64,000 nt of DNA from Deltaproteobacteria bacterium (lineage in GTDB: Bacteria > Desulfobacterota > GWC2-55-46 > DRQE01). This document shows positions 2,484 through 34,266 of this stretch, one piece after another. Location of the stretch: contig WGFM01000033.1 of the NCBI GenBank assembly GCA_015492245.1, positions 1 to 64,000 on the forward strand, written 5' to 3'. The position numbers were made by a program, and so were the translations under genes. Numbering within the stretch: the stretch's first letter is position 1; each line of letters starts with the position of its first letter. Under the pieces are notes generated by a model that was not told the origin of the DNA, searched no databases, and saw only the letters and a program-made list of their open reading frames with translations.

Positions 2484-4031
2484 ATGGGAAAAGATTGCAG
2501 ATGCATAATGGTCCAGGGAACTGGCTCAAGTGTTGGAAAGTCCATCATCGTGGCAGCCCTGTGCCGTATATTCAGGGAAGATGGGTTCAGGGTGGCCCCT
2601 TTCAAGCCACAGAACATGTCCCTCAACTCCTTCGTTACAGCCGCAGGGGGTGAGGTATCAAGGGCACAGGCGGTGCAGGCAGAGGCCGCAGGAGTAGAGC
2701 TTACCACGGACATGAACCCCATACTGCTCAAGCCTATGAGGGACAGGGGCTCACAGGTCATAGTGCACGGAAGGGTCTACGGGGTGATGGATGCAAGAAA
2801 GTTTCAGAGTTTCAAGAAGGTGGCAAGGGGGTTTGTCATTGAAAGCTTCAGGAGGCTTGCAGAAGACCATGAGATAATCGTCATAGAGGGCGCGGGCTCT
2901 CCGGCAGAGATAAACCTGAGGGAAGATGACATCGCCAACATGGGCACGGCACACATGACCGATGCACCGGTGGTGCTTGCGGGAGACATAGACAGAGGCG
3001 GCGTGTTCGCCTCCATTGTGGGAACACTCGAGCTTCTTTCACCACAGGATAGACAGAAAATAAAGGGATTCATCATAAATAAGTTCAGGGGAGACATAAC
3101 CCTTCTTGCCCCGGGGCTTGAGTTCCTCCAGAAGAGGACAGGGCTTCCGGTAATAGGTGTTGTGCCATTTCTTGATGATATATACATACAGGAAGAAGAT
3201 GGGGTGAACCTGAAGGAGAGGCAGAGAGAGGGTGGCACCGTGGAGGTTGCCGTAATACAGCTGCCACATCTATCCAACTCCACAGACTTTGAGCCCTTCA
3301 CCCTTGAAGATGATGTAACATTGAGGTATGTGAGGCCCGGCATGCCCATAGGAAGGGCTGACATACTCATAATACCCGGCACAAAGAACACCATAGAGGA
3401 CTTGAGATACCTCAAAGAGAGGGGCTACCCCAATGAGATACAGGCCCACATAGAGCGGGGTGGCATACTCATGGGCATATGTGGAGGATTTCAGATGCTG
3501 GGCAGAACCATCGAGGACCCCTACATGGTGGAAGAAGGCGGCAGAGAAGAAGGCCTCGGATACCTGCCCATGGAGACACGCCTTGAGCCAGAAAAACTCA
3601 CCCAGAGGGTGAAGGCCCGTGTGGCAGGTAGCCTCGTTGCAGAAACTGACATGGAGATAACAGGCTATGAGATACATGCAGGCAGGAGCACAACTGCTAC
3701 AGCTCTGCCCCCGCCATTTGTTATCTACAGAAGGGGTAGTAAAGATGTTAACATACCCGATGGATGCATCAGTAAGGACGGCAGGATATGGGGCACATAC
3801 ATACATGGCATATTCGACAATACACGCTTTAGAAGGGCCCTCATAGAGAGGGTAAAAAAGGGCAGGGGACTTTCAACAGCTGGTGATACACCTGAGATGG
3901 ACTATAAGGCAAGGAGCGAAGAATCTTACAGAAGGCTTGCAGGGTGTGTAAGAGACAGCCTCGATATGGAGCTCATCTACCAGATGATGGGGCTACATAC
4001 ATCGAGCATCGGGGCAGGAGTAGAGAGATGA
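2484..4031 (+). CDS. cbiP/cobQ: cobyric acid synthase
   Basis: MVQGTGSSVGKSIIVAALCRIF...KPQNMSLNS; GATase motif GGILMGICGGFQMLG. Confidence 0.95.
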   Translation: MGKDCRCIMVQGTGSSVGKSIIVAALCRIFREDGFRVAPFKPQNMSLNSFVTAAGGEVSRAQAVQAEAAGVELTTDMNPILLKPMRDRGSQVIVHGRVYGVMDARKFQSFKKVARGFVIESFRRLAEDHEIIVIEGAGSPAEINLREDDIANMGTAHMTDAPVVLAGDIDRGGVFASIVGTLELLSPQDRQKIKGFIINKFRGDITLLAPGLEFLQKRTGLPVIGVVPFLDDIYIQEEDGVNLKERQREGGTVEVAVIQLPHLSNSTDFEPFTLEDDVTLRYVRPGMPIGRADILIIPGTKNTIEDLRYLKERGYPNEIQAHIERGGILMGICGGFQMLGRTIEDPYMVEEGGREEGLGYLPMETRLEPEKLTQRVKARVAGSLVAETDMEITGYEIHAGRSTTATALPPPFVIYRRGSKDVNIPDGCISKDGRIWGTYIHGIFDNTRFRRALIERVKKGRGLSTAGDTPEMDYKARSEESYRRLAGCVRDSLDMELIYQMMGLHTSSIGAGVER

Positions 4032-27135: not shown

Positions 27136-27238
27136 CTCCTGCCTGTAAAGACCACCCCGCTTGTAGAACAGCCACCATAGGGAAGATACCACACCAGATG
27201 AGCAGATACCTGCAAGAATCATACATCAACAGTTTCTC

Positions 27239-27267
27239 TTGACATATACCTGCATTTATAGTATTTC
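27239..27267 (+). promoter_or_regulatory. putative promoter of peptide-modification cassette
   Basis: TTGACA(27239-27244)-N17-TATTTC(27262-27267); alternative TATAGT/TATGAT nearby. Confidence 0.45.
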
Positions 27268-27314
27268 TATGATAGTTTAAACACATCATCGATTCTTTCA
27301 AATCAGAAACTTTC

Positions 27315-27344
27315 TGTTGACCATCCTGAAAGAGATGGTCAACA
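27315..27344. promoter_or_regulatory. 11-bp perfect inverted repeat in cassette leader
   Basis: TGTTGACCATC(27315-27325)-N8-GATGGTCAACA(27334-27344). Confidence 0.55.
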
Positions 27345-27572
27345 TGTTCTGGAAGACAGGTCAGCTGGCAACATTCCTGCCCCTTGTGAGTGTCTCATCC
27401 TTGTTTTCGTTTTCTGAAGGACCTGTTTCTGTGTTATAGGCATTCGTTGAAGGTTTTATAAGTGGCTTCCTGCGCTGGCAGTGCCGGAAGGTGTGTGGCA
27501 GAGGGTTCGTGGAAGATGGGCTTCCATGGGGTAGCTTCAGTGAGAACAAAAAAGAGTAAAGGAGGTGGAGTT

Positions 27573-28067
27573 ATGTCGAGACAGGAACCTGTGGCACTAA
27601 AGTATCTTATGTGCAGCAAAGAGGCGGAAGAGCTGATGGAAAGAGGAGAGAGGGTGGCTCTTAAGTATCTTATGTGCAGTAGAGAAGGCCAGATGGGCCT
27701 CAAGGATGCGGTTGCTCTCAAGTATCTTATGTGCAGCAAGGAGGCCGAGGGGCAGATAGACAATAACGAGCCTGTGGCACTGAAGTACCTGATGTGCAGT
27801 AGAGAGATGAGCTCAATAGAAGCAAAGGACGCAGTTGCGCTTAAGTATCTGATGTGCAGCAGAGAGGCTGACGATATGCTCGCACGGGGTGAAAGCGTTT
27901 CGTTAAAGTATCTGATGTGCAGCAGAGAGGCAGGCGAGATAAACCCTGAGGCAGCGGTGGCGTTGAAGTATCTTATGTGCAGCAGACCGATAGATGAGCT
28001 CTCAAGGGGTGGAGACACCGTTGCACTCAAATATATCATGTGCAGTAAGGAACTGGAGGAAAAGTAA
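27573..28067 (+). CDS. repeat-containing RiPP-like precursor peptide, 164 aa, eight V[AS]LKY[LI]MCS[KR] motifs
   Basis: RBS AAAGGAGGTGGAG before ATG 27573; repeats begin at 27591, 27654, 27711, 27774, 27834, 27897, 27957, 28020; every Cys and every aromatic residue lies in a repeat. Confidence 0.85.
   Translation: MSRQEPVALKYLMCSKEAEELMERGERVALKYLMCSREGQMGLKDAVALKYLMCSKEAEGQIDNNEPVALKYLMCSREMSSIEAKDAVALKYLMCSREADDMLARGESVSLKYLMCSREAGEINPEAAVALKYLMCSRPIDELSRGGDTVALKYIMCSKELEEK
27591..28067 (+). repeat. eight in-frame imperfect coding repeats, 57-63 nt period
   Basis: Protein motif near-invariant while Leu/Ala/Val codons differ between copies (e.g. GCA CTA, GCT CTT, GCT CTC, GCA CTG, GCG CTT, TCG TTA, GCG TTG, GCA CTC). 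Confidence 0.95.
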
Positions 28068-28160
28068 CGGAGGCAGACAGAAAGTTCCACTCTTCGGTTG
28101 AGACAGTCCACGAATCCTCTTCACACAAACCCGGGTTTAAAGGACAGGAGACAGGCAGTA

Positions 28161-29570
28161 ATGGGTAACATGGCTGGTATAATGCGTTTTTTAGCAAGGG
28201 AAGGCAGCATACGGTTGTCCCATCAGCTCCATGTCTCGGAGCTTGCACCTGGCTGGAAGGGGGTCTACAGCCCCTTCGGACACAGGGTGGCATTCGTCTT
28301 CCATGAGGCATGGGAGGCACTCACCAGAAGAGAGTTCCACAGGGTGAGCCCACAGATGCTGGAATATCTCGTTGAGAACAACATCCTTGTGGAACAGGGC
28401 TTCGAGGAAAGATGGCTCAGGGAAAACCTTCCATCTTATCAGGTGGGTTTCAACTCCATGTACCTTGTGGTAACGCAGGGATGTAACTTCGGATGCAAGT
28501 ACTGTGCAGTAGTTGAGAATATAGACTCTTCAGAGCGGTTGAAGGAGAAGATGAGCCCTGAGACAGGTAAGAAGGCTGTGGAGTTCTTCGCCAGAGAGCT
28601 CAGGATAAGCAACCCACCCGATGCCAGGGTAACATTCTATGGTGGAGAACCCATGCTCAACAAGGAGCTCATCTTTGAACTGGTGCCACGCATAAAGGAG
28701 ATAAGCTATCCTGGCCAGACACAGGATGTGGAGGTTGTGATGATAACAAATGGCTATCTATACGATCCCAACCTTACAGAGCTGTTCAAGGAGTATGGAG
28801 TCGGTGTGTGCCTATCTCTTGATGGGACAAGGCGCCACCAGGATGCAACACGCGTTACACGGGACGGCAGACTGCCAACCTTCAACCGTGTTGTAGAGAA
28901 CTTCCGCAGATACAGGGACGCTGGACTCTCCATGGGTGTATCGACTGCACTGGGAAGTCACAATGTGCGAGACCTCAAAGAGATAAGTCTTTTTTATGCA
29001 GAGCTTGGTGCCCACTTTGTGGAATTTCAGATTCCCTACCAGGTTGCAAACGAGAGCAACCTGTTCTGGGTTTCAACAACAGAGCTTACAGGCTATCTCA
29101 TGGATGCCTATGAGACACTCAGGACACATAACATAGTGGAGGGAACGACCTATCGGCGTCTGAAAGACTTCGCCACAGGAAGGATACATACCAGAGACTG
29201 CGGGGCAAACGGTAACCAGCTCGTTGTGGCACCAGATGGCTCCATTGGACCATGCCACAGTCTGGTTGGAACGAGGAAGTTCTTCGAAGGAAATGTGAGA
29301 GAGCCCTGTAACCCGAGGAAGATGAAGAATTTTACCGAATGGGCAGCCAGGTTTCCGCTCAACATGGCAATATGCAAGGGATGTCCCTACATCTCGCTGT
29401 GTGGAGGTGGATGCACATACAACAGTTACATATCTACCGGCACCATATGGAACAAGGACCCCCAGGTGTGCGAATATATGAAGGGCATGGTGGACTGGAT
29501 ACTGAAGGACCTCTGGAAGGAGACGGGCATGGAAGCAAGATACGGCAGTATCGAGCAAAAAGAGGGGTAG
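28161..29570 (+). CDS. radical SAM/SPASM peptide maturase
   Basis: TQGCNFGCKYCAVVE (CxxxCxxC); SPASM-type Cys: DCGANGNQLVVAPDGSIGPCHSLVG...CKGCPYISLCGGGCTYN...CEYM; ATG 28161 preferred, ORF open from 28098. Confidence 0.88.
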   Translation: MGNMAGIMRFLAREGSIRLSHQLHVSELAPGWKGVYSPFGHRVAFVFHEAWEALTRREFHRVSPQMLEYLVENNILVEQGFEERWLRENLPSYQVGFNSMYLVVTQGCNFGCKYCAVVENIDSSERLKEKMSPETGKKAVEFFARELRISNPPDARVTFYGGEPMLNKELIFELVPRIKEISYPGQTQDVEVVMITNGYLYDPNLTELFKEYGVGVCLSLDGTRRHQDATRVTRDGRLPTFNRVVENFRRYRDAGLSMGVSTALGSHNVRDLKEISLFYAELGAHFVEFQIPYQVANESNLFWVSTTELTGYLMDAYETLRTHNIVEGTTYRRLKDFATGRIHTRDCGANGNQLVVAPDGSIGPCHSLVGTRKFFEGNVREPCNPRKMKNFTEWAARFPLNMAICKGCPYISLCGGGCTYNSYISTGTIWNKDPQVCEYMKGMVDWILKDLWKETGMEARYGSIEQKEG

Positions 29571-29571
29571 G

Positions 29572-30960
29572 ATGGGGGTGAGGCTTGCGCTTGTTGAACC
29601 GTATGTGTCTGTGGATTCCCTAAGGGCTTATGCTGACAGGTGCGAGCCCTCCCATCTGGTGGGCATGTATAACCTGCTCAAAGCCGCTGACTGCGATGTA
29701 ACCTTGATAGATGCCTACAGCAACAACCTTTCTGTCAAAGGGCTCGTCGGGCGTCTCGTTGAAGAGGGTATTACCCATGCAGGTTTCACAGTATACGACT
29801 ACACCCCCTGTGTGAGCTACATGCAGAAGGTCTTCGAATACCTGCCCGGTGGTATTACCACAATCGTTGGAGGTCCTGGGGCAACCTACTGCACAGAGAG
29901 GATTGTTGAACTGCTCAGGCCAGACTGGCTCGTCAAGGGTGAGGGTGAGGATGCCATCATTGGCCTCTACAGGGCAGGATTCTCCAAAGAAAAGCTCGAT
30001 GCCATGGGCTACCGCACTTCTCTGCGTGGCCGTACTGCTGTAGTCTCCTCAAGGCAGCTACCCTTCGATGATATACCGTTTGAGCGCCCATACGGACTGG
30101 AACGCTATCACTATCAGGCGTCCCTACGGGTTCAGAGAGGATGTGTTGGCAGATGTGTCTTCTGTTCAGGTGCGTACCAGAAGGAATTTGACTACATGAG
30201 CACTTCTCTTGCGAGAAGGCTCATGGACCATCTTGTCTTCCAGAAGTCCGCAAAGGTCATAGCACCAAGCGGGCCCGATTTTACCACCCTGCCACACAGG
30301 GCGAATGATATAGTGCGGGTCATACTGGAAGGTGGGCTCGACTTTCATTCCTTCAGGCCTGGTGTAAGGCTCGATACACTGTCCGTTGCACTGAAACAGG
30401 CTCCTTCTTTATGGCAGAGACTTTCAGAGCGTTACAGTGTAAGCATGGAGTCTTCGATAGAGTCCTTTTCTCCAGCAAGGCTCAGGCGCCTTGGCAAGAA
30501 TGTGTCTGAGGATTTTTTCAACAGCATATTCAAGCTCCTCCAGGAGATATTCAACAGATGTAACTGCACCATAGTTCTTGGAAGGATAGCCATAGACCCT
30601 ACAATGACCATAGATGAGTTCATAACAGACTGTCAGGGTTTCAGAAAACTCATCGAAAGATTCGGCAACCGTGTTACAATAGGCGGTATGCTTATGAACC
30701 AGTTCATCCCCCTTGAGGGTACCCCTGCAACAGAAGTGTCAGATTCTACCAGCAATCACTGGCTTCTGCCAGAGCCTGCAGACCCGCTCATGGCAGCCCT
30801 GAAGAGAGAGTTTCTCGATGACAGAAGGTTCAGAACATGGTGCATGCTTGCAGAGAGGCTCGATGACTTCAGCGAGCGTAATATGGTCTTCCATGAGATT
30901 TTAAGAGTAGCAGAAAGAGAGGCAAGGGAGATAAAGAGAAGGTGTGTGCTGAAGGACTGA
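29572..30960 (+). CDS. radical SAM protein with B12-binding-like N-terminal domain
   Basis: N-term LALVEPYVSVDSLRAYADRCEPSHLVGMYNLLKAADCDVTLIDAYS..THAGFTVYDY..IVGGPGATYC..KGEGEDAI; then RVQRGCVGRCVFCSG (CxxxCxxC). Confidence 0.85.
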   Translation: MGVRLALVEPYVSVDSLRAYADRCEPSHLVGMYNLLKAADCDVTLIDAYSNNLSVKGLVGRLVEEGITHAGFTVYDYTPCVSYMQKVFEYLPGGITTIVGGPGATYCTERIVELLRPDWLVKGEGEDAIIGLYRAGFSKEKLDAMGYRTSLRGRTAVVSSRQLPFDDIPFERPYGLERYHYQASLRVQRGCVGRCVFCSGAYQKEFDYMSTSLARRLMDHLVFQKSAKVIAPSGPDFTTLPHRANDIVRVILEGGLDFHSFRPGVRLDTLSVALKQAPSLWQRLSERYSVSMESSIESFSPARLRRLGKNVSEDFFNSIFKLLQEIFNRCNCTIVLGRIAIDPTMTIDEFITDCQGFRKLIERFGNRVTIGGMLMNQFIPLEGTPATEVSDSTSNHWLLPEPADPLMAALKREFLDDRRFRTWCMLAERLDDFSERNMVFHEILRVAEREAREIKRRCVLKD

Positions 30961-31613
30961 ATCCTCTCAAGGTGGACTCTGTTGCAGCAAGGCTTCGCTG
31001 CCCCCCACAGATGGAACACAGAAGAGTCGAGTTTGCAACCATGGTTGTAGATGCCTACAGTATTGTTAGAAGGTTCGCCGTAGACCATCAATACGGGGCA
31101 CACCTTGAGCCGTCCCTTTTCGGCTCCGTTGAGATATTTGCTACAGAGGAGAAGCTCATACAGAGGCTTTCCTCTGTTACCACCCTTCCTTGCAGAAGGC
31201 CTGAAGGAGAGGTTCTCTGTGCAGCGCTTGTGTCGGCTGTGCTGATGGCAGTAACGCCAGAGGAATACGCCAGCTTGAGACCCGAGTATGCTTCAATAGA
31301 CAGGGCATGGACGAGACTTCTGGCACACGAGATGGCACACGAACTTCACAGCAGAGTGGCGGGTGGACAGGAAAGCATGGGACCAAGATGGTTCTATGAA
31401 GGGTTCGCCATGTATGTGGCAGGCCAGTTCTTCCATGAGAAGGTCTCAACGGCTGAGGAAGCAGGGGCTGCAATAGCTGCCACATCTCGTGGTTCCTATG
31501 CAAAATATGTGGCTGCCTTCAGGTTCTTTGTTGAAAGGCTGGGCATTAAGCAGTTGCTCGCTCATGCCCACAGAAAGGGGTTTGAAGAATGGCTGTTCGC
31601 ATCCCTTAAATGA
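30942..31613 (+). CDS. cytosolic HExxH metalloprotease (gluzincin-like), putative precursor-processing peptidase
   Basis: LLAHEMAHELHSRVAGGQESMGPRWFYEGFAMYVAGQFF (HExxH plus downstream Glu); no signal peptide; GTG start overlaps upstream stop. Confidence 0.75.
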   Translation: MCAEGLNPLKVDSVAARLRCPPQMEHRRVEFATMVVDAYSIVRRFAVDHQYGAHLEPSLFGSVEIFATEEKLIQRLSSVTTLPCRRPEGEVLCAALVSAVLMAVTPEEYASLRPEYASIDRAWTRLLAHEMAHELHSRVAGGQESMGPRWFYEGFAMYVAGQFFHEKVSTAEEAGAAIAATSRGSYAKYVAAFRFFVERLGIKQLLAHAHRKGFEEWLFASLK

Positions 31614-31623
31614 TGAGTCGGCT

Positions 31624-34266
31624 CTATCGCAACATCTTTCTTACAAACTCGGTGGTCCTTTCAACGGCCGATTTCACCTTATCTGTCGCCTTGCCACCTG
31701 CCTGTGCCATGGTGGGTCTTCCTCCACCACGGCCACCTATGATGGGGGCAAGCTCTTTTATAAGACCTGTGGCAGGCACCTTTTCTGCAAGATCCTCTGT
31801 TACAGAGGCTACAAGTGTTGCCTTATCATTACTGCTCGTTCCAAGAACCACCACGCAGGATTCAAGCCTCTGGCGTATGACATCGGTGAGCCTCCTAAGC
31901 TCCTCCACCTCTGCCTCCTCGAGCACGCCGGTTACAACCCTTATGTCTTCAACGGTCTTTACATTATCGAGCAGTGTTGAGGCAATGTCTTTCTTCTCCC
32001 TGTGTGCTGCTCTCTTGAGTTCTGCCTCGAGCTCTCTTTTCTCCTCAAGAAGTCTCTTTATACGCTCTGCAGTCTCCTCTGGCCTTGTGTTGAGGATCGA
32101 GGCAAGCTCTTCAATCAGCCTGTGGGCATTGTAGAGTTCCCTGAAGGCCATCTCGCCCGTGAGTGCCTCTATCCTTCTTATGCCAGAGCCGACAGATCCC
32201 TCCTTAATTATCTTGAACAGCCCCATGTCAGAGCTTCTCCTCACATGGGTTCCACCACAGAGTTCCTTGCTGACATTGTTCACAGACACGACCCTTACCA
32301 TGGACTCGTATCTTTCGCCAAAGAAGGCAAGGGCTCCCTTCTCCATGGCCTTGTCGAGGGTCGTCAGTTCCACCGTTACCTCGAGGTTCTTCCTTATGAT
32401 TCGGTTCACCTCTTCCTCTATTCGTTCTATGTCCTCCCGGCTGAGGGGAGAAAAATGTGTGAAGTCGAACCTGAGCCTGTCAGGGGCCACAAGAGAGCCT
32501 GCCTGTTTTACATGCTCACCGAGGAGCCTTCTCAACACACTGTGGAGTACGTGGGTTGCCGTGTGGTTGCGGGCTATGGACTCCCTTCGTTCTATGTTTG
32601 GCGCAAGCTCCACCCACATGCCCTTCTTGAGTGTGCCTTCCTTTACGGTGCAGATGTGGGTTATGATTTCTGGAACAGGTCTTTTTGTATCGAGCACTGT
32701 AACAGAGAGGTCTTTGCCCACAATGACCCCCGTGTCTCCCACCTGGCCACCTGACTCACCATAGAACGGGGTCTCCTCTGTTATAAGCTCCACGCTATCA
32801 CCTGCCTCTGCCATGTCCACAGCCATGCCACCCTTAAGTATTGCCACCACCCTGGAGGATGTAACCTCTTCGTGGTAGCCAACAAACTTGGTCTCCACAC
32901 CCTCTTCGACGAGTTCCCTGTAGGTGCGCTCCTCTTCTCCCAGGGCCTCTCCCTTCCATGCCCTTCGTGCCCTTTCCTTCTGTTCTGCCATCTCTCTGTT
33001 GAACCCCTCGGTATCCACCCCTATGCCTTCGTTCTTGAGTATGTCCTCGGTGAGGTCCAGAGGAAAGCCGTAGGTATCGTAGAGTTTGAAGGCAACGGGG
33101 CCTGGAAGCACCTTCGCCCCTTCCTTCTTAAGCCTTTCCACCTCTTCGGTAAGTATGGAGAGCCCGCGCTCCAGGGTCTCGAGGAAGCGTTCCTCCTCTG
33201 TGAGGGTTATCTGTTTTATGATGGACTCGGATCTTTCGAGCTCTGGATAGGTGCTGCCCATGAGGTCTATAACAGATGGCACGACCCTGTGGAGGAAGGG
33301 TCCTTTCAGCCCGAGCAGGCTCCCATGGCGTACCGTTCTTCTTATGATACGCCTCAGCACATAGCCTCTGCCCTCGTTGGATGGGAATATGCCCTCTGCT
33401 ATGAGGAATGCCGTGGCCCTTGCATGGTCTGCCATGGCGCGTATGGATATGTCTTTCTGGTGGTCCTTTCCGTAGTCAACAGAGGTGAGCCCTTCTATCT
33501 CTTCTATAATGGGTATGAAGAGGTCTGTATCGTAGTTGCTCTTCTTGCCCTGGAGTGCTGCTGCGATGCGCTCGAGCCCCATGCCGGTATCTATGCTGGG
33601 GTTTGGCAGCGGCTCAAGGCTTCCGTCGGGCTGGCGATTGTATTCCATGAACACAAGGTTCCACAGCTCGAGGTATCTATCGCAGTCGCATCCAGCGGTG
33701 CATGTGGGCCTGCCGCAGCCAGCCTCCTCACCCTGGTCCATGAGTACTTCTGAACAGGGCCCGCAGGGGCCTGTATCTGCCATGCTCCAGAAGTTGTCCG
33801 CCTCTCCCATGCGCACGACCCTTTCGGGAGGAAGCCCTATCCTATCTATCCAGAGCCTTTCTGCCTCATGGTCCTCCTCGAAGACCGTTGCCCACAGCCT
33901 TTCCGGAGGAAGTCCTGCCACACGGGTAAGGAACTCCCAGGCATACTGGATAGTCTCTTCCTTGAAGTAGTCGCCAAAGGAGAAGTTTCCCAGCATCTCG
34001 AAGAAGGTGTGGTGCCGTGCGGTGTAGCCCACATTCTCGAGGTCGTTGTGTTTCCCGCCCACGCGCATACACTTCTGGCAGCTTACAGCCCTGGTGTAGT
34101 CTCTTTTTTCCTCGCCAAGGAATACCCCTTTGAACTGCACCATCCCTGCGTTGGTGAAAAGGAGGGTGGGATCACTCTGTGGCACAAGCGATGAAGAGGG
34201 AACCACCCTGTGCCCCTTCGAACGGAAGTATTCGAGGAAAGCATTTCTTATCTCATCGGCCCTCAT
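31624..34266 (-). CDS. alaS: alanyl-tRNA synthetase
   Basis: IRNAFLEYFRSKGHRVVPSSSLVPQSDPTLLFTNAGMVQFK; C-terminal GGRGGGRPTMAQAGG. Confidence 0.97.
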   Translation of the reverse strand: MRADEIRNAFLEYFRSKGHRVVPSSSLVPQSDPTLLFTNAGMVQFKGVFLGEEKRDYTRAVSCQKCMRVGGKHNDLENVGYTARHHTFFEMLGNFSFGDYFKEETIQYAWEFLTRVAGLPPERLWATVFEEDHEAERLWIDRIGLPPERVVRMGEADNFWSMADTGPCGPCSEVLMDQGEEAGCGRPTCTAGCDCDRYLELWNLVFMEYNRQPDGSLEPLPNPSIDTGMGLERIAAALQGKKSNYDTDLFIPIIEEIEGLTSVDYGKDHQKDISIRAMADHARATAFLIAEGIFPSNEGRGYVLRRIIRRTVRHGSLLGLKGPFLHRVVPSVIDLMGSTYPELERSESIIKQITLTEEERFLETLERGLSILTEEVERLKKEGAKVLPGPVAFKLYDTYGFPLDLTEDILKNEGIGVDTEGFNREMAEQKERARRAWKGEALGEEERTYRELVEEGVETKFVGYHEEVTSSRVVAILKGGMAVDMAEAGDSVELITEETPFYGESGGQVGDTGVIVGKDLSVTVLDTKRPVPEIITHICTVKEGTLKKGMWVELAPNIERRESIARNHTATHVLHSVLRRLLGEHVKQAGSLVAPDRLRFDFTHFSPLSREDIERIEEEVNRIIRKNLEVTVELTTLDKAMEKGALAFFGERYESMVRVVSVNNVSKELCGGTHVRRSSDMGLFKIIKEGSVGSGIRRIEALTGEMAFRELYNAHRLIEELASILNTRPEETAERIKRLLEEKRELEAELKRAAHREKKDIASTLLDNVKTVEDIRVVTGVLEEAEVEELRRLTDVIRQRLESCVVVLGTSSNDKATLVASVTEDLAEKVPATGLIKELAPIIGGRGGGRPTMAQAGGKATDKVKSAVERTTEFVRKMLR

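Follow-up and report, generated by a model that had tools for sequence, protein, structure and literature searches.

Guidance of radical SAM (rSAM)/SPASM peptide maturases is in most cases attributed to a substrate leader that is bound by an RRE. In the PapA/PapB ranthipeptides, thioethers from Cys to Asp/Glu are formed in six repeated CX3D/E motifs, the leader of PapB substrates is bound by an RRE, and PapB joins Cys to Asp/Glu with 0 to 6 residues between them (PMC9413430). CteA likewise has a separate leader, and an RRE is present at the N terminus of CteB (PMC8326336). In the TvgA/TvgB system, a short repeated motif is modified by an rSAM enzyme at each repeat to give a poly-cyclopropylglycine peptide, and a peptidase is found in the cluster (PMC9062424).

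Here we analyzed a 64,000-nucleotide stretch of DNA from a Deltaproteobacteria bacterium (contig WGFM01000033.1; the window), which contains a precursor gene with eight near-identical units followed by three enzyme genes (Table 1). The units, their pattern of constraint, the gene order, the enzyme superfamilies and the boundaries of the cassette were observed directly. We consider it reasonably probable, somewhat above even, that the locus is a self-contained multi-core RiPP cassette whose units would each carry their own recognition and modification site, acted upon by the predicted chemistry set out below.

Table 1. Positions of the features in the window
Feature	Position	Strand	Remarks
Whole cassette	27136..31632	.	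Interval between the stop of the TPR-protein gene and alaS that a same-genus genome lacks at this site
Shine-Dalgarno of precursor gene	27558..27572	+	AAAGGAGGTGGAGTT; read directly
Precursor gene	27573..28067	+	164 aa; eight units V[AS]LKY[LI]MCS[KR][EP] with variable spacers of 11-13 aa
Single-unit peptide of precursor			VALKYLMCSKEAEEL
Radical SAM/SPASM peptide maturase	28161..29570	+	469 aa; 93 nt past precursor gene; CX3CX2C at 108-115
Putative B12-binding-domain radical SAM protein	29572..30960	+	462 aa; starts 1 nt past maturase stop
Putative zinc metallopeptidase (HExxH protein)	30942..31613	+	223 aa; HEMAH ... WFYEGFAMY; 19-nt overlap with B12-type gene

The four-gene cassette and its boundaries

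The cassette comprises 4.5 kb with four co-directional genes, and, as in RiPP clusters, a short precursor gene adjoins the gene of a peptide-modifying enzyme in one operon. The initial annotation had described an eight-core precursor, and the reading of a multi-core precursor beside maturases is borne out by the eight units and the rSAM/SPASM gene downstream. A same-genus genome (G001, locus L032) has the TPR gene and alaS in convergent orientation, with their stops 30 bp apart and no cassette between them; homology of the window to this locus stops at the TPR stop (27135) and restarts inside the end of alaS at 31633, the TPR protein upstream of the cassette being 94% identical to its counterpart. 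The cassette is likewise missing at this place in a second family member (L033). Since the flanking genes lie 30 bp apart where the cassette is lacking, the 4.5-kb unit appears to be self-contained, with four genes, among which no transporter, regulator or immunity gene was found. A recent foreign origin of the cassette was considered and is unsupported, as the GC content is 50.4% against 51.9% and the three enzyme genes have a codon usage within the host range. The left end of the cassette (27136-27572) consists of about 437 bp of A+T-richer (55% A+T) noncoding DNA, in which no clear plus-strand promoter and no Rfam match was found.

The precursor proved to be rare in the genomes searched. 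No homologue was found in 97 relatives or in plasmids, where one weak match of 25% identity came up, and none was present among the matches listed for viral contigs, where those with at least two KYxMC in frame were rejected as low-complexity chance reads. The repeat DNA pattern occurred in 1 of 396 genomes of the phylum and 1 of 63 genomes of the class, in both cases the source genome itself, and the string KYLMCS was found in none of the papers searched. Since no precursor homologue was found, conservation of the precursor rests on the paralogous units only. For the maturase, a pattern-based search of genome contigs, which may miss distant relatives, gave none above about 33% identity, and no relatives were found at 1e-30 in the 396 phylum genomes; the available class genomes, plasmids and viral contigs likewise yielded no close relative. 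A defence-system reading was rejected, as viperin models gave only generic radical SAM matches.

Constraint on the units and history of the repeats

In the translation, the consensus unit VALKYLMCS[KR]E (n = 8) recurs every 19-21 aa, with unit-to-unit spacings of 21, 19, 21, 20, 21, 20 and 21 aa. Only MSRQEP stands ahead of unit 1, the V of which is residue 7. The start at ATG27573 has a strong Shine-Dalgarno (GGAGGTGGAGTT-ATG, with GGAGGT ending 6 nt upstream of the ATG), while the alternative start GTG27462 has only a weak GAAGG; the precursor should therefore have almost no leader, in agreement with its earlier description as near-leaderless, and a separate N-terminal leader, which is a usual but not universal feature of RiPPs, was not found. 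As had also been claimed, all Tyr (eight) and all Cys (eight) are inside the units, and Trp, Phe and His are absent from the protein.

Of the six frames over the precursor, the sense frame and one antisense frame are open and the other four contain stops. The antisense ORF (27434-28111, minus strand, 225 aa) spans the whole precursor gene but is not taken as coding, since constraint on the repeats is lower there: pN/pS among the units is 0.077 in the sense frame versus 0.247 in the antisense frame. In the sense frame, variation within the unit is at the third codon position for 9 of 11 codons. Across the eight units, the motif VALKYLMCS has a pN/pS of 0.053, whereas the odd spacers (12 aa, of equal length) reach 0.647 with a pS of about 0.73, as in the motif; at similar pS, this difference points to strong constraint on the peptide motif and not on the spacer. 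The proposal of purifying selection on the peptide is thereby upheld, while the suggestion that the spacers act as recognition sequences in place of a leader is disfavoured, because they are the weakly constrained part. On these sequence comparisons, the conserved motif would be the better recognition candidate.

The codons record how the units arose. The first Leu of the motif uses CTA, CTT, CTC, CTG, CTT, TTA, TTG and CTC in units 1 to 8, that is, all six Leu codons, as the initial annotation had noted, and 26 of 28 codon pairs differ at this column versus 19.95 expected from local codon usage (P ~ 0.002, uncorrected for about 10 columns). Over all columns, there are 111 synonymous differences versus 146 ± 9.7 under a free draw built on local codon usage (the window's own genes), which is fewer than expected (P = 0.002), so that saturation is not general. 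Ser is encoded by AGY in all eight units, for which a free draw from AGY and TCN would give about 0.32^8; Cys is TGC in 8/8, Arg AGA in 5/5 and Tyr TAT in 7/8. Codons so much more alike than free draws (Ser AGY, Cys TGC, Arg AGA) argue that the eight units descend from one ancestor by old tandem duplication and have been diverging for a long time. Of the earlier contention that selection, rather than recent tandem duplication, explains the repeats, one half stands, recent duplication being unlikely, and the other does not, since these shared codons mark the units as tandem duplicates all the same.

The spacers alternate, with 13 residues after units 1, 3, 5 and 7 and 11-12 after units 2, 4 and 6; the odd ones follow the pattern [KR]-E-x-x-E-L-x-x-R-G-x-x-V and the even ones RE...(K/E)(D/A)AV. 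Among 35 partitions, the odd/even split comes first at the protein level and seventh at the DNA level, a post hoc and marginal result that gives a weak hint of two-unit blocks having been duplicated. As for acidic residues by the Cys, Glu is found at C+3 (CX2E) in seven of the eight units and Asp at C+5 (CX4D) in unit 7; no unit has one at C+4, and the Cys-X3-Asp/Glu motif is absent.

Enzymes, proposed route and rival explanations

The maturase contains the rSAM cysteines C108, C112 and C115 and the seven SPASM cysteines C347, C365, C405, C408, C414, C418 and C437, all invariant in A1/A2, and it is a radical SAM/SPASM protein on this basis. It passes no NCBIfam cut-off, the best models being TIGR04136 FibroRumin (172 of 400 bits, 2e-50), PapB NF047865 (148 of 340 bits) and, at 133 of 453 bits, the quinohemoprotein amine dehydrogenase maturase. 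Its nearest relatives (L002-L006), from Patescibacteria and cyanobacteria, are 29-33% identical to it, and two of these, compared with TIGR04136, scored 401 and 398 of 400 bits (a member and a borderline case). A profile of the maturase and its nearest relatives returned TigE (8vpo, 3e-34) and CteB (5wgg/5why, 3e-33) as the top solved structures, and the AlphaFold model (pLDDT 57, modest) again placed 8vpo and CteB first by fold. The profile alignment to 8vpo includes the N-terminal region, for which the model has strands at 24-36 and 44-47 and helices at 48-72; hhalign gave a probability of 4.8% for this domain against PqqD-like proteins. The N-terminal ~95 aa are probably an RRE-like domain.

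The B12-type protein carries CX3CX2C at 191-198, present in A3, and scores above the cut-off for Radical_SAM (42.0 bits); its B12-binding match (29.2 bits, 8.8e-7) lies about 3 bits under the Pfam cut-off of 32.1, and no curated equivalog matched. Elsewhere in the window, a cobalamin riboswitch (2148-2344, 121 bits) lies upstream of a CobQ/CbiP-like gene (2484-4031), from which B12 is probably available in the host. The HExxH protein has the segments HEMAH and WFYEGFAMY, which may supply the HExxH and the downstream Glu ligand of a gluzincin-type metallopeptidase, with family matches below cut-off (Peptidase_MA_2, 15.7 of 32.4 bits; flagellinolysin, 26.2 of 205 bits), and no signal peptide by eye; its AlphaFold model (pLDDT 48) was too poor for use, and no relatives were found in 148 genomes. 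Two HExxH-type proteins that are 40% identical to each other are encoded at two Patescibacteria loci (L003:2652-3362 and L004, ~1178-2059), where their genes come after a FibroRumin-type maturase; no relation of the window protein to them was detectable.

What follows is inferred from these features, as regards how the units are recognized, which bond is made, the sequence of steps, where the chain is cut and the role of the product: (i) the precursor would be a polyprotein of eight tandem, self-sufficient substrate units and not one leader with one core; (ii) the recognition sequence would lie within each unit, probably VALKYL, adjoining the reactive Cys, and its binding in strand form by the RRE-like domain of the rSAM/SPASM enzyme would bring the Cys into the active site; (iii) this enzyme would probably crosslink the Cys, most likely through a thioether whose nearby partner carbon belongs to the Glu at C+3 in seven units and to the Asp at C+5 in unit 7, or else lies on the Tyr/Lys side, with Tyr-Cys or Lys-Tyr as alternative bonds; (iv) as a second change, the B12 enzyme would most likely either C-methylate Lys, Tyr, Leu or Met or form another bond there; and (v) the HExxH protein would cut in the variable spacers, releasing up to eight near-identical small products. 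The placement of Glu and Asp would fit a thioether of the PapB kind; since the spacers are rich in acidic residues, an acidic residue near the Cys is by itself no evidence for a Cys-Glu/Asp bond. As two different kinds of radical SAM enzyme may act on one short unit, new bond chemistry is plausible. The fullest form of this proposal, in which each ten-residue unit of a leaderless polyprotein is both address and substrate for the two rSAM enzymes in sequence, each round of translation giving eight copies of a new peptide or cofactor that is C-methylated and crosslinked at Tyr/Lys/Met/Cys, is tentative, and we would sooner doubt it than assume it.

The division of the precursor into conserved motif and variable spacer could also be read the other way round, the motif being a repeated address and the 11-13 aa spacers the products, a combinatorial set of seven different peptides; each conserved unit would then direct the modification of the spacer that comes after it, or be crosslinked to that spacer. 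Cyanobactins, in which conserved recognition sequences flank variable cores, provide a precedent, and the spacers are indeed the variable part (pN/pS 0.65) and of two alternating kinds. We regard this as unlikely, however, as the typical rSAM target residues (Cys, Tyr and Lys) sit in the conserved part, the spacers resemble soft linkers (E, A, G, R and D), and the alternation, recognized post hoc as 1 of 35 partitions, is only weakly reflected in the DNA (rank 7 of 35).

There are two further rival explanations. The eight KYxMC units may supply in bulk a small cofactor or metal ligand derived from Tyr/Cys for intracellular use, formed by a PQQ- or mycofactocin-like route that combines crosslinking, another radical step and metallopeptidase trimming. 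An rSAM/SPASM enzyme and a peptidase with a Tyr-containing precursor but no transporter or immunity gene resemble the PQQ layout (PqqE, PqqF/G; PMC8326336), four genes make the cassette complete, and Met-Cys could bind soft metals. Yet the cassette contains neither PqqD nor a dehydrogenase client, ten conserved residues exceed the need of a two-residue cofactor, and PqqE/MftC are not the nearest curated models to the maturase; we give this route only a small chance. That the precursor is instead an unmodified small repeat or scaffold protein standing beside radical SAM genes by chance is suggested by the periodicity of 20-21 aa, by the amphipathic-looking ALKYLMCS segment and by the lack of known homologous precursors. 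This is very improbable, given that the four genes are absent together at the empty site, that every Cys and Tyr is in the motif while the spacers vary in length and sequence, and that the adjoining gene encodes a SPASM-type peptide maturase. We retain the multi-core RiPP cassette as the working interpretation.

Comparison with known systems

A natural precursor with eight equal units and hardly any leader would allow a test of whether the address can reside in each core, and would lend itself to producing a crosslinked peptide in many copies from a single gene. Since the empty site defines the cassette, its likely gene set of four is known, which makes reconstitution in laboratory E. coli practical.

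The FibroRumin system provides the closest curated model to the window maturase, TIGR04136, although the maturase remains below its cut-off and the short Cys-rich precursor of that system is lacking. FibroRumin-type precursors (L002, L003, L005, L006 and L160) each consist of one short peptide whose N terminus looks like a leader and whose cysteines are clustered, whereas the window precursor has one Cys per ~20-aa unit, eight units and no leader. Four Cys-rich precursors in Patescibacteria and cyanobacteria (L002:5640-5852, L003:77-349, L005:1326-1556 and L006:2895-3074) share FAIPxxxDFxxIxxxIG and adjoin FibroRumin-type maturases; three of them were compared with NCBIfam and matched no model. 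Their sequences suggest an unnamed family that has moved between phyla.

PapA/PapB shares with the window system several Cys with an acidic residue after each, and PapB is the second-best maturase model, but the window units are CX2E (seven) or CX4D (one), with no conserved CX3D/E, and the cassette has additional B12-rSAM and HExxH genes. SCIFF/CteB and TigE (5wgg and 8vpo) are the nearest solved structures over the rSAM, SPASM and N-terminal regions of the maturase; identity to it is low, and their precursors are unrelated. TvgA/TvgB also combines one precursor bearing a repeated short motif with an rSAM enzyme and a peptidase, but differs in its four-residue TVGG repeats without a Tyr/Cys target, in its transporters and Fe/2OG oxidase, and in its chemistry. 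Repeated-motif rSAM precursors (TvgA) and PapB substrates with several Cys are already known; the window is unusual in that one bounded four-gene cassette combines a near-leaderless precursor of eight equal ten-residue units with two kinds of radical SAM enzyme.
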